Assembly: GCA_025350965.1 (NCBI GenBank)
Contig: JANXWV010000008.1
Coordinates: 1 to 50,052, forward strand
Source: Rhizobacter sp.
GTDB taxonomy: Bacteria; Pseudomonadota; Gammaproteobacteria; Burkholderiales; Burkholderiaceae_C
Length of the DNA: 50,052 nt
Direction of reading: 5' to 3'
A program made the translations under genes and the position numbers. The notes beneath the pieces are model-generated. The model had not been told where the DNA came from. It ran no database searches and saw only the letters and a list, made by a program, of their open reading frames with translations. Positions 20,163 to 34,539 of the stretch are shown here, one piece after another (position 1 is the stretch's first letter; each line of letters opens with the position of its first letter).

Positions 20163-22163
20163 TCATTGAGCGATCAGCTTCACCAGCGCCTGCCCGGTGT
20201 AGCCGGCGAAGCTGGCGGCGCGATCGGCGATCAGGTAGTTGCGTGCGCCGAAGATGCGGCGCACGTAGCCGTCGGCCTGCGCGTCGAGCGTGACGCAGAA
20301 GGTGCGGATGCCGCGCGCTGCGGCGCCCACCACCGCGTGGCGCGCGTCTTCGACGAGGTAGTCGTCTTCGACCACGTCCACATCAGACGGCTCGCCGTCG
20401 GTCAACATCACGATCACCTTGTGGTCGGCCGTCTGCTGCGCGAGCGCGGCGCTGGCATGGCGCAAGGCCGCGCCCATGCGCGTGGACAGCCCGCCCTGCA
20501 CCTGCGCGAGTCGCGCCTGCTGCTCGGCGCCAAACGGTTCGTCGAAATCCTTGATGGGCTGGTAGTGCACCTGGTGCCGGCCGTTCGACGCGAAGCCGTG
20601 CAGTGCGACCCGATCGGCATCGCCAGCCAGCGCATCGACGACGACACGGGCGGCGCGCTTCTCGATGTCGATCACGGTGGTGAAGCTGCCAGGAACGAAG
20701 CGCCCGGTCGATTCCGACAGGTCCATCAGCACGACGATCGCACTCGACCGCCGGCGGCGGCCGTGGCGGCGGAACACGCGACCGTCCGGCACGCCGCGTG
20801 TGCGCAGCTCGATCGCGTTGTCGACCACCGCGTTCAGGTCCAGCTCGTCGCCCTCGGTCAGCTTGTTCAGCCGGATCGCGCGGTCGGGCGTGCGGTGCTG
20901 GCCGTGAACGCGCGGCTGCGGCCGTGGTGCGATCGGCGCGTGGTCGTTGTGGCGTGCGCGCAGCGGCGGCTCGATCACGGTGGCCCACCCGTCGCGCAGC
21001 GCCTCGAGGCGGTGGTCCCATTCCGGGTGGCGCGTGCGGCGGCGCATGTCCACATCGATCTGCGGCACCTCGGGTGGCAGTTCGCCCCGGGGGCGCAACT
21101 CCACGTCTTCGAGCTGGACGCTGACACGCTCGTTTTCGGGCAGCGTCGCGTTCAAGTCCCACAACAGCGCGTTGTCGTCGCGGTAGACCGGCTGCGGACG
21201 GTAGTCCGCAGGCAGCGGCAGGCGCATCTTCTCGATGCCGATGGCCAAGGTGCGGCCGACGCGCTCGAACGCGGCCGCATCGCGCAAGTCGAGTGCCGCG
21301 GCTTCCTCGAACAGGCGCCGGCCGGTCTCGACCCAGGTGTTGCCGTCGGCGTACGCCGGATCGTGCAGGGCCCGCGTCAGCCGCGCCGCGAGGCCGGCCA
21401 GCTCGAACCCGCTGGTCTCGCGGCCGGCGGACTGGAACATGCCCCACAGGCCGTGCAAGCCGGGGAATTCCTGCGTCATCAGCCGCTCGACGCGTGCGTC
21501 CTCGACCAGCGCGATCATCGCCAGCAGCATCGGCCGCCGGGAGCCGGCGGGCCGCGGCAACGGCGAGTGGCGCAGGTGGGCCGCGACATGGGCGATGCCG
21601 GCGCGGTACAGCGCATCGCGCTGCCAGGCCGCTGCGCCGACGCAGCGACGCGGAAAGCGGATCACCTTGTCAGAGCCCACGTTCAAGGAAGGCGGTGTCA
21701 GCGACGCGGCCTGCGGCTCGTGCAACTCGATGCGATAGCCTTCGACGCCGAAGCCGGCGAGGTAGTGCAGCAAGGCCTCGCGGCGGCCCAGCAGGTGCGC
21801 CGTGTCGTGCTCGGTGCGGCGGTCGGTGAAGACCAGCGGATCTTCGTGCATGAAGAAGTGGAGGCGTCGTGCGGCATCGTCGCGGTGGCGCTGCAGGCCG
21901 TGCACCGCCCACTTGCGCAGGCCGGTCGGGTCGACCAGCGCGTCGGGAATGCCGTCGAGCCTGCCTGCCAACGCCAGCGCCGCATCGGGCGCCTCGGCCG
22001 CCACCTGGCCCAGCAGGTCGGCCAGCATGGCCACGTTCTCTTCGTTGCCGAGCAATTCGACGAGCTGGGGCAGCACTGCCGTCAACGCGGCGTGAGCGTC
22101 GGGGTCGACCACTCGCAGCACGCCGAGCCGGCGCGCGGCGAGCGGCCCTTCAGCGATGCTCAT
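20163..22163 (-). CDS. VWA-domain protein 1 (NorD/CbbO-like partner of a MoxR ATPase)
   Basis: 666 residues. The C-terminal von Willebrand A domain has an intact MIDAS (VLMDLSEST, the DxSxS element) and later TDGEPSDVD. The N-terminal two thirds resemble NorD/CbbO (AGIAHVAAHLRHSP, EDARVERLMTQEFPGL, YRDDNALLWDLNATLPENE). Such proteins work with MoxR-type AAA+ ATPases to activate or metallate target enzymes: NorQD for nitric oxide reductase, CbbQO for Rubisco. The start codon overlaps the stop of the upstream ATPase gene by 4 bp, so they form a functional pair. The target is unknown; it lies beside tubulin-like and CobW genes. Confidence 0.9.
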   Translation of the reverse strand: MSIAEGPLAARRLGVLRVVDPDAHAALTAVLPQLVELLGNEENVAMLADLLGQVAAEAPDAALALAGRLDGIPDALVDPTGLRKWAVHGLQRHRDDAARRLHFFMHEDPLVFTDRRTEHDTAHLLGRREALLHYLAGFGVEGYRIELHEPQAASLTPPSLNVGSDKVIRFPRRCVGAAAWQRDALYRAGIAHVAAHLRHSPLPRPAGSRRPMLLAMIALVEDARVERLMTQEFPGLHGLWGMFQSAGRETSGFELAGLAARLTRALHDPAYADGNTWVETGRRLFEEAAALDLRDAAAFERVGRTLAIGIEKMRLPLPADYRPQPVYRDDNALLWDLNATLPENERVSVQLEDVELRPRGELPPEVPQIDVDMRRRTRHPEWDHRLEALRDGWATVIEPPLRARHNDHAPIAPRPQPRVHGQHRTPDRAIRLNKLTEGDELDLNAVVDNAIELRTRGVPDGRVFRRHGRRRRSSAIVVLMDLSESTGRFVPGSFTTVIDIEKRAARVVVDALAGDADRVALHGFASNGRHQVHYQPIKDFDEPFGAEQQARLAQVQGGLSTRMGAALRHASAALAQQTADHKVIVMLTDGEPSDVDVVEDDYLVEDARHAVVGAAARGIRTFCVTLDAQADGYVRRIFGARNYLIADRAASFAGYTGQALVKLIAQ

Positions 22164-22975
22164 GCGCGCGGCCCAAACTGCGCTTCGACGAACCCGGCGA
22201 GCGCGCTCTGCAGATCGCGATCGTCGGTCAGCGGCACCGTCATCGCCAGCGCGCAGGCGTCATGGGCCGCGATGCCCTCGCCGATCAGGCCGCCGGCATG
22301 CACCAGCATGCGGGTCGAGATGCCCTCGTCCAGCCCCCGGCCGCGCAAAGCGCGCGACTGCTCGGCGATCTTGACGAGTCGTGCCGCCAGTTCGGGGGCG
22401 ATGCCGCTCTCGTGCGTCACGACCTCGATCTCGGTCTCGCGGGGCAGGAAATCGAAGTCGATCGCGCCAAAACGCTGGCGCGTCGATGGTTTCATGTCTT
22501 TCGCCGCGCTCTGGTAGCCGGGGTTGTAAGACACCACGAGGCGAAAGTCGGCGTGCGCGCGGACCAGCTCACCGCGTTTGTCGAGCGGCAGGATCCGCCG
22601 GCCATCGGTCAACGGGTGGATCACCACCGTCGTGTCCTGCCGCGCCTCGACGATTTCATCGAGGTAGCAGATCGCACCATGGCGCACCGCGAGCGTCAAC
22701 GGCCCGTCGTGCCAGACGGTGCCCTGCGCATCCAGCAGGAACCGCCCGACGAGGTCGGACGCGGTCATGTCTTCGTTGCACGCCATCGTGATCAGCGGCA
22801 ACTTCAAGCGCCACGCCATGTGCTCGACGAAGCGCGTCTTGCCGCAGCCCGTCGGCCCTTTGAGCATCATCGGCAGGCCGCGCGCGATGGCTGCGCCGAA
22901 CAGCAGAATTTCGTCACTGGCGGCGCGGTAGTAAGGCTCGCGCTCGATCAGATAAGGGCGAATGGAGTCGTCCAT
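22160..22975 (-). CDS. MoxR-type AAA+ ATPase 1 (NorQ/CbbQ-like)
   Basis: 271 residues from ATG 22975 (MDDSIRPYLIEREPYYRAAS). Visible are Walker A GPTGCGKT (residues 40-47), CNEDMTASDLVGRFLLD, Walker B AICYLDEIVEARQDT, sensor LVVSYNPGYQ and STRQRFGAIDFDF with the arginine finger region. These are hallmarks of the NirQ/NorQ/CbbQ/GvpN group, which remodel target enzymes with a VWA partner. It overlaps VWA1 by 4 bp. A perfect 14-bp hairpin lies 53 bp upstream. It is a close paralogue of the ATPase at 33721-34539. Confidence 0.93.
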   Translation of the reverse strand: MDDSIRPYLIEREPYYRAASDEILLFGAAIARGLPMMLKGPTGCGKTRFVEHMAWRLKLPLITMACNEDMTASDLVGRFLLDAQGTVWHDGPLTLAVRHGAICYLDEIVEARQDTTVVIHPLTDGRRILPLDKRGELVRAHADFRLVVSYNPGYQSAAKDMKPSTRQRFGAIDFDFLPRETEIEVVTHESGIAPELAARLVKIAEQSRALRGRGLDEGISTRMLVHAGGLIGEGIAAHDACALAMTVPLTDDRDLQSALAGFVEAQFGPRA

Positions 22976-23027
22976 GGTGGGTACTGCTCGGCCAGAAAAA
23001 CAATCGCTGCGGGGCGAGAGGAATATC

Positions 23028-33713: not shown

Positions 33714-33720
33714 GGCGCGA

Positions 33721-34539
33721 TCAGAACGATGCGGCGACGGCAGCGTCGAGCGCCTGCGCCATGTCGGCGTCGTCGGTCACCGGCAGCACTACGGCCATGC
33801 GGCACGCGGTGATCGCGTCGACGCCGCGCGCCATCAGCGCAGCCGCATGAATCAGCATGCGGGTCGAGGCACCTTCGTCCAGCCCGTGGCCCTTGAGCCT
33901 GCGGGTTCGCTCGCCGAGCGCCACGACCTTCGCGGCGGCCTCCGGTGCCAGCCCGGATTCATGCGCGACGATCTCGGTCTCGATGGCGGCGCCCGGGAAC
34001 GCGAACTCGATCGCCGCGAAGCGCTGGCGCGTCGAGGTCTTCAGGTCTTTCATCACGTTCTGGTAGCCAGGGTTGTACGAGACGACCAGCTGGAAATCCG
34101 GGTGCGCGTGGACCAATTCGTTGAGTTTCTCGATCGGCAGGATGCGCCGCGCGTCGGTCAGCGGGTGGATCACGACGGTCGTGTCGGCGCGCGCCTCGAC
34201 CACTTCATCAAGGTAGCAGATCGCGCCGAAGCGCGCTGCTTGGGTGAGCGGTCCGTCCTGCCAGCGCGTGCCTTCGGCGTCGAGCAACCAGCGGCCGACG
34301 AGATCACCGGCGGTGATGTCTTCGTTGCAGGCCACCGTGATCAGCGGCTTGCCCAGCCGCCACGCCATGTGCTCGACGAAGCGGCTCTTGCCGCAGCCGG
34401 TCGGCCCCTTCAACATCAGCGGCATGCGCAACGCGAACGCCGTGTCGAACAACGCCAGCTCGTTGCCGACGCTGCGGTAGTAGGGCTCGGCAGCGATGCG
34501 GTAGGCCGCGAGCGGGTCGGGGTGATGGGGTGCGTTCAT
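33721..34539 (-). CDS. MoxR-type AAA+ ATPase 2 (NorQ/CbbQ-like)
   Basis: 272 residues, about as long as ATPase 1 and very similar: AEPYYRSVGNELALFDTAF, Walker A GPTGCGKS (45-52), CNEDITAGDLVGRWLLD, ICYLDEVVEARADTT, VVSYNPGYQ and STRQRFAAIEFAF. It lies between amiE and VWA2 on the same strand with small gaps. The two MoxR-VWA pairs of this island are therefore ancient duplicates with likely different clients. Confidence 0.93.
   Translation of the reverse strand: MNAPHHPDPLAAYRIAAEPYYRSVGNELALFDTAFALRMPLMLKGPTGCGKSRFVEHMAWRLGKPLITVACNEDITAGDLVGRWLLDAEGTRWQDGPLTQAARFGAICYLDEVVEARADTTVVIHPLTDARRILPIEKLNELVHAHPDFQLVVSYNPGYQNVMKDLKTSTRQRFAAIEFAFPGAAIETEIVAHESGLAPEAAAKVVALGERTRRLKGHGLDEGASTRMLIHAAALMARGVDAITACRMAVVLPVTDDADMAQALDAAVAASF

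Follow-up and report, generated by a model that had tools for sequence, protein, structure and literature searches.

Tubulin, FtsZ and their kin are filament-forming GTPases, and we know of no member of this superfamily that is a metabolic enzyme. Acetonitrile hydratase (ANHase) is not known to resemble the classical nitrile hydratases (NHases), and the abstract of the 2010 ANHase paper reportedly gives the associated protein AnhE a mass of 11.1 kDa and a sole histidine. The enzyme of Rhodococcus jostii RHA1 is described as a cobalt NHase (Co-NHase) with the gene order alpha-AnhE-beta, in which AnhE acts as a metallochaperone for cobalt incorporation (PMC3511329, PMC3680314), and the strain is reported to have the enzyme and to use acetonitrile (PMC6941271). 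Here we analyse a 50,052-nucleotide stretch of DNA from Rhizobacter sp. (contig JANXWV010000008.1, positions 1 to 50,052; the window), in which the products of three genes, TubA, TubB and TubC, carry a tubulin/FtsZ signature and are encoded within an island for nitrile and amide catabolism (Table 1). TubB, a small gene and TubA, which together span 26713-23066, correspond in order to the three genes of an RHA1 locus that likely encodes ANHase. Their product is very probably a cobalt nitrile hydratase with two subunits that are both predicted to adopt the tubulin fold, rather than a part of the cell skeleton. This reading draws on homology and gene order, on the fold of the TubB model, on a C-x-x-G-C-A-C motif and on the neighbouring genes for cobalt/nickel transport, CobW, amide sensing and amidase.

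A tblastn search with TubA against 72,556 plasmid records returned 15 matches, of which 12 belong to Rhodococcus. On RHA1 plasmid pRHL2, genes for a substrate-binding protein and an aliphatic amidase are followed by RS41530 (514 amino acids (aa), tubulin-like), RS41535 (99 aa) and RS41540 (568 aa), and these by a small helix-turn-helix gene and a nickel transporter gene. TubB shares 41% identity with RS41530 (over 486 aa) and TubA 49% with RS41540 (over 565 aa), while the small gene product shares 39% (over 99 aa) with RS41535, which occupies the identical position between the tubulin genes. The computed RS41535 protein has a mass of 11.09 kDa, one histidine and no cysteine. The gene order and metallochaperone role given in the papers, together with the mass and histidine reported for AnhE, make a strong but indirect case that RS41530-41540 are AnhA-AnhE-AnhB. 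The two loci share their order, homology in all three genes and a nearby amidase and metal transporter. The window differs in that it adds CobW1, NorQ1-VWA1, NicO, a truncated third subunit and AmiR, carries the cysteine motif in the other subunit (TubA, as against AnhA in RHA1) and has a classical NHase alongside. All five Rhodococcus plasmid loci opened, of the 12 matched, encode an amidase together with a transporter for cobalt or nickel, and a TubA relative (79% identity) is encoded by Natronocella acetinitrilica, described as an acetonitrile user (PMC4036024). RHA1 AnhA (L042:10157-11701; L numbers denote fetched loci) starts with a histidine-rich stretch that looks metal-binding, which TubB lacks. 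A sequence search for an AnhE relative of solved structure found none, a single match to an uncharacterised protein (E 0.0079) being set aside.

A scan of genome contigs yielded 22 loci in 20 genomes, assigned to alpha-, beta- and gamma-proteobacteria, to unplaced proteobacterial metagenome-assembled genomes (MAGs) and to a single cyanobacterial MAG, with the caveat that the binning of MAGs is open to error. In the window's family, taken as Burkholderiaceae, the genes are rare, occurring in 3/399 genomes, window included. Every one of the 22 loci in which both subunits are complete, counting plasmids and the window, keeps the order TubB-AnhE-TubA (two pairs are near copies). Its recurrence across the three proteobacterial classes, Rhodococcus and one cyanobacterial MAG indicates that the arrangement is not due to chance. 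The tie to nitrile and amide catabolism that the sequence-only reading had proposed for the tubulin genes recurs as well, with AmiE, AmiC or AmiR encoded within the fetched flanks in 13 of the 20 other genomes. AmiE itself is found in 9/20, where chance would give roughly 0.0008 per locus (assuming random placement and a single family's rate, AmiE occurring once per genome in 53/299 family members), and in all seven plasmid records opened of the 15 matched. CobW, cobalt/nickel transporters and a redoxin are likewise recurrent neighbours. DUF6925, which is fused with CobW in one open reading frame (ORF) at L019:3900-6296 and encoded by a separate gene before CobW at L043:9298-10320, is possibly a partner of the CobW of these loci.

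Membership of the tubulin superfamily is supported by several observations. Pfam scans, which bear out the earlier recognition of three tubulin/FtsZ-signature proteins and two MoxR-VWA pairs among Co-type NHase, CobW and AmiE genes, place Tubulin_2 or Tubulin domains in 23066-24838, 25148-26713 and 30080-31405, with weak scores (27-33 bits; cut-off: 27). The glycine loop reads GGGTGSG in TubB and AGGTGSG in TubA and TubC. Fold prediction, proposed as a check at the outset, gave a TubB model that matches CetZ, FtsZ and tubulin; the TubA model is too poor for use alone, but TubA is clearly homologous to TubB (hhalign E 4e-117), and the tubulin fold is thereby supported despite the weak Pfam scores. 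Among the matches listed, which comprise the closest 120 relatives each of TubA and TubB, the loop GG(T/V)GSG is kept in 119/120 and 100/120, respectively. This conservation would suit an ANHase-type pair that also polymerises with GTP, the enzyme working as or within a filament, but we consider this unlikely, as an acidic NxDxxD/E-type T7 loop is not evident by eye at its approximate position. Roughly at that place, P-x-TQH-x-A-x-R is found in 118/120 TubB relatives and GAPHET-x-S in 117/120 TubA relatives listed. The window proteins further stand apart from the Tubulin/FtsZ/CetZ superfamily in being tied to an enzyme operon, and a search of Protein Data Bank sequences found no chain matching the tubulin genes better than E 0.1. 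Other divergent prokaryotic members of the superfamily, compared here by description only, are FtsZl1, with a long coiled coil and an OmpA/VWA context, and FtsZl2, restricted to Proteobacteria and, as printed, with no associated genes (Makarova and Koonin 2010, PMC2875224). An apparent fourth tubulin at L014:8220-9611 was rejected, the product being a radical-SAM protein; its gene is preceded by a diverged AnhE paralogue (L014:7868-8170) and followed by TubC.

The C-x-x-G-C-A-C motif lies near the protein end and is present in at least one subunit in 22/22 loci with both subunits complete. Both subunits carry it in four loci (gamma-proteobacterial or unplaced MAGs), only the protein in the TubA position in 13, and only that in the AnhA position in five, all from Rhodococcus. 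Among the relatives listed, CIWGCAC or CFWGCAC occurs in 120/120 for TubA and 0/120 for TubB. We infer that cobalt may be held at this motif, because its C-A-C resembles the C-S-C of the classical NHase claw. A TubA/TubB pair that has left catalysis in Proteobacteria, and now works as a GTPase complex delivering cobalt to the classical NHase, might be argued from the adjoining CobW and cobalt/nickel transporter genes and from the lack of the cysteine motif in TubB of the alpha- and beta-proteobacterial loci. This is very unlikely, however, given that every TubA relative listed retains the motif and that the draft genome of Rhizobium subbaraonis has the three genes, while no classical NHase alpha was found in it.

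Two genes of the NorQ/CbbQ type (AAA_5 + CbbQ_C) each precede a VWA gene (22160-23062 with 20163-22163; 33721-34539 with 31473-33713). The earlier suggestion that both pairs cooperate with the tubulins may hold for the pair beside TubA but was rejected for the second. In genomes without tubulin genes, NorQ adjoins AmiE in 24 of 28 AmiE loci; these are the loci fetched from the 50 tubulin-free genomes among 53 with AmiE (30 fetched in all; the window's genome, G004 and G266 have tubulin genes), and span about 4 kb, so that a more distant NorQ would escape the count. The TubA-adjacent NorQs from eight loci group in a single clade (Shimodaira-Hasegawa-like approximate likelihood ratio test (SH-aLRT): 99) that is placed among the AmiE-linked NorQs (supports: 89-90) in a quick, midpoint-rooted tree. 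On these neighbourhoods and this tree, the second pair is part of the amidase operon. The first, apparently alone in having a specific tie to the tubulin genes, seems to be a copy that came to ANHase in a single recruitment. AmiE, a nitrilase-family amidase, with an adjacent NorQ, and in most cases a VWA gene, is common in the window's family (L051-L078). The five Rhodococcus loci opened gave no NorQ or VWA match; in two of them (L044:1786-2850, L045:1491-2573), the AAA+ gene adjoining the amidase was rejected as a NorQ, being of the ClpB-D2/AAA_2 type without CbbQ_C, and different AAA+ machines thus accompany the amidase in different phyla. NorQ and NorD are described as inserting metal by a twisting mechanism (PMC13036017). 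The window resembles that system in combining a CbbQ/NorQ-type AAA+ protein and a VWA partner with a metalloenzyme, and differs in that the putative target is a tubulin-fold hydratase or AmiE. AmiE, AmiC and AmiR are also shared with the Pseudomonas aeruginosa amiEBCRS operon, where AmiB, encoded next to amiE, is listed as a probable chaperone (PMC5259723, PMC10213629).

The window also encodes a classical three-subunit Co-NHase, recognized by an alpha subunit with CTLCSC, a split beta subunit and an accessory protein. The beta N- and C-terminal parts are encoded by two genes meeting in TGATG, a split shared with Rhizobacter (L017), and three-subunit NHases with a split beta have been described (PMC7329996). 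It is predicted to be a second, unrelated enzyme for the same nitrile-to-amide step. TubA and NHase alpha show no similarity when compared (E 16), so homology between the two was rejected, and the motifs differ (CTLCSC vs C-x-x-G-C-A-C). Classical NHase alpha lies beside the tubulin genes in only 2/20 other genomes (Rhizobacter GL140, and L013, on whose contig TubC is the only tubulin gene). Anywhere in the genome, it occurs in 16/19 genomes with tubulin genes and 66/396 family genomes without (Fisher 9e-10), a comparison of different taxa that may reflect only nitrile-eating lifestyles; the count omits the genome of L013 and treats G004 and G060, whose coordinates are identical, as one genome. 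The genome co-occurrence anticipated by the sequence-only reading was therefore found, though seldom as direct adjacency. A GTP-driven tubulin filament or compartment which, with the MoxR-VWA proteins, brings about maturation or clustering of the classical NHase or the amidase, as that reading had envisaged, could appeal to the tubulin fold, the GGTGSG loop, the nearby MoxR-VWA pairs and this co-occurrence, but is very unlikely in view of the rare adjacency, the differing taxa compared in the co-occurrence counts, the presence of NorQ beside AmiE in tubulin-free genomes and the RHA1 counterparts, which on the above identification are subunits of the hydratase itself.

TubC resembles the AnhB-like subunit without its metal-site end. 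TubC-type proteins fall within the alpha- and beta-proteobacterial TubA lineage, and a further truncated group (L027, L028, L030, L031) within the other TubA branch; a single origin in one common clade, a hypothesis set up after viewing the quick tree, was rejected (approximately unbiased test: p-AU 0.00014). The quick tree left out incomplete subunits (TubB of L012; TubA of L014, L026, L032, L033 and L046), the TubB of L021, which lacks a start anchor, and L048, a near copy of L044; the tested tree left out further rows, mostly near copies (TubA-type: L023, L024, L043, L047; TubC-type: L019, L046). None of 13 truncated paralogues in loci carries the cysteine motif, while 2/118 TubC relatives listed do: P0069 (526 aa) and P0089 (540 aa), metagenome proteins with 69% and 59% identity to TubC that end in a TubA-like tail with CIWGCAC and may be TubA-type proteins, recombinants or chimeras. 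In 8/9 loci of its clade, window included, TubC directly follows VWA on the same strand (exception: L014). Accessory proteins of classical NHases resemble part of beta, and in the window TIGR03889 and NHase_beta_N both match 27909-28259; and by the same logic we infer TubC to be a maturation mimic. The proposed ANHase-type pair and the classical Co-NHase with its self-subunit-swapping activator would thus be alike in reaction, and in having a helper that resembles part of a subunit.

In the mechanism we propose, cobalt would enter through the TonB receptor and NicO and be passed by CobW1 and AnhE to the TubA/TubB heterodimer, where the GCAC loop would grip it in a claw resembling the one in classical NHase, presumably convergent because the TubA and classical NHase sequences are unrelated. 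NorQ1-VWA1 may remodel the dimer so that cobalt can be inserted, a role comparable to that of NorQD in nitric oxide reductase, with TubC as maturation mimic in the manner of P14K-type activators, which resemble NHase beta; bound nucleotide would have a structural role or aid assembly. Nitriles would be converted to amides, and these in turn to acid and ammonia by AmiE, which has a NorQ2-VWA2 pair of its own, under AmiC/AmiR control. On balance we favour the full proposal, namely that a heterodimer from the tubulin superfamily is a genuine metalloenzyme with a cobalt claw (C-x-x-G-C-A-C) convergent with CTLCSC, that a third tubulin without that end was made twice in Proteobacteria as a maturation mimic, and that a recruited MoxR-VWA pair services the enzyme.

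ANHase itself is already known. Openly licensed (CC0/CC BY/CC BY-SA) full-text literature yielded no report linking nitrile hydratase to tubulin or FtsZ; in the part of the filament-enzyme review PMC6874960 concerned, the term belongs to the title of a reference on nitrilase, and no such link is drawn. New within that literature would be the tubulin-superfamily membership of the ANHase subunits, a common cysteine motif that switches subunit and, in Proteobacteria, a version of the enzyme accompanied by MoxR-VWA, CobW and a third, truncated tubulin. If ANHase is a tubulin-superfamily enzyme, the superfamily gains a hydratase, and the nitrile-hydrating ANHase is given a fold along with a proposed cobalt site and a set of maturation factors, open to direct testing. 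The RHA1 genes and many relatives, annotated as 'tubulin-like' or 'hypothetical' in databases, would then need renaming.

Table 1. Predicted features of the nitrile/amide island, with window coordinates and the basis of each assignment.
Feature	Coordinates	Strand	Basis
TonB-dependent receptor, likely metal uptake	15621..17738	-	Pfam; also present in L017
Redoxin/peroxiredoxin	17776..18258	-	Pfam; recurrent neighbour
NicO nickel/cobalt transporter	18314..19156	-	Pfam
CobW1 metal-chaperone GTPase, linked to ANHase genes	19160..20143	-	Pfam; recurrent neighbour
VWA1, partner of NorQ1	20163..22163	-	VWA_2/VWA
NorQ1, MoxR-type AAA+	22160..23062, likely start near 22975	-	AAA_5 + CbbQ_C
TubA, AnhB-like ANHase subunit, tubulin superfamily, AGGTGSG	23066..24751 (ORF 23066-24838)	-	Tubulin_2; 49% identity to RS41540
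CIWGCAC motif near TubA end, proposed cobalt site	23219..23239	-	Conservation in relatives
AnhE-like cobalt metallochaperone, 108 aa	24832..25158	-	39% identity/99 aa to RHA1 RS41535; position conserved between tubulin genes
TubB, AnhA-like ANHase subunit, tubulin fold	25148..26713	-	GGGTGSG; Tubulin_2/Tubulin by Pfam
CobW2, adjoins classical NHase genes	26887..27912	-	Pfam
NHase accessory protein	27909..28280, start 28280 or 28247	-	TIGR03889
NHase beta C-terminal subunit, own gene, start in TGATG	28249..28596	-	NHase_beta_C
NHase beta N-terminal subunit	28596..28928	-	NHase_beta_N
NHase alpha, Co-type CTLCSC	28947..29603	-	Pfam + sequence
Small conserved gene, 113 aa	29706..30047	+	Family F12 in L012, L013, L014; no Pfam match
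TubC, C-terminally truncated AnhB paralogue, AGGTGSG	30080..31405	-	Tubulin_2/Tubulin by Pfam; tree
VWA2, amidase-operon VWA	31473..33713	-	Pfam; AmiE-locus survey
NorQ2, amidase-operon MoxR ATPase	33721..34539	-	AAA_5 + CbbQ_C; AmiE-locus survey
AmiE aliphatic amidase	34579..35604	-	NF009802, 717 bits
UrtE-like ABC ATPase	35672..36391	-	Pfam
UrtD-like ABC ATPase	36372..37106	-	Pfam
UrtC-like permease	37103..38179	-	Domain scan
UrtB-like permease	38248..39120	-	Domain scan
UrtA/FmdD-like substrate-binding protein	39192..40361	-	Pfam
AmiC-like amide sensor	40585..41775	+	Peripla_BP_5; adjoins AmiR
AmiR antiterminator (ORF limits)	41573..42415	+	AmiR_N + ANTAR

Read from right to left, the minus-strand run passes from the UrtABCDE-like transporter, AmiE, NorQ2, VWA2 and TubC through NHase alpha, beta N, beta C and the accessory protein to CobW2, TubB, the small gene, TubA, NorQ1, VWA1, CobW1, NicO, the redoxin and the TonB receptor, with AmiC and AmiR divergent to it (40585-42415). 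The island exceeds the range 20163..34539 first assigned to it, rightward with UrtABCDE, AmiC and AmiR and leftward with CobW1, NicO, the redoxin and the TonB receptor. Its genes had been described as closely spaced or overlapping on one strand; the spacing is correct in the main, most gaps being below 100 bp or overlaps, with larger ones between CobW2 and TubB (about 170-200 bp, depending on the start chosen) and between TubC and NHase alpha (476 bp), but the latter contains a small plus-strand gene (29706-30047). Relatives of this gene lie on the opposite strand beside TubC in L012 and L013, and near TubC in L014. Left of the TonB receptor, an amidase-signature family enzyme (11457-12974, minus strand) and a substrate-binding protein (13096-14415) form a second amide-handling set, and an IS66-type transposase is encoded at 5938-7818 (minus strand). 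Near the right end of the window, a relaxase (MobA/VirD2; 45219-46199) and a 437 aa ParA-ParB fusion protein (47913-49226) are encoded, suggesting that the contig is likely a plasmid or mobile element.

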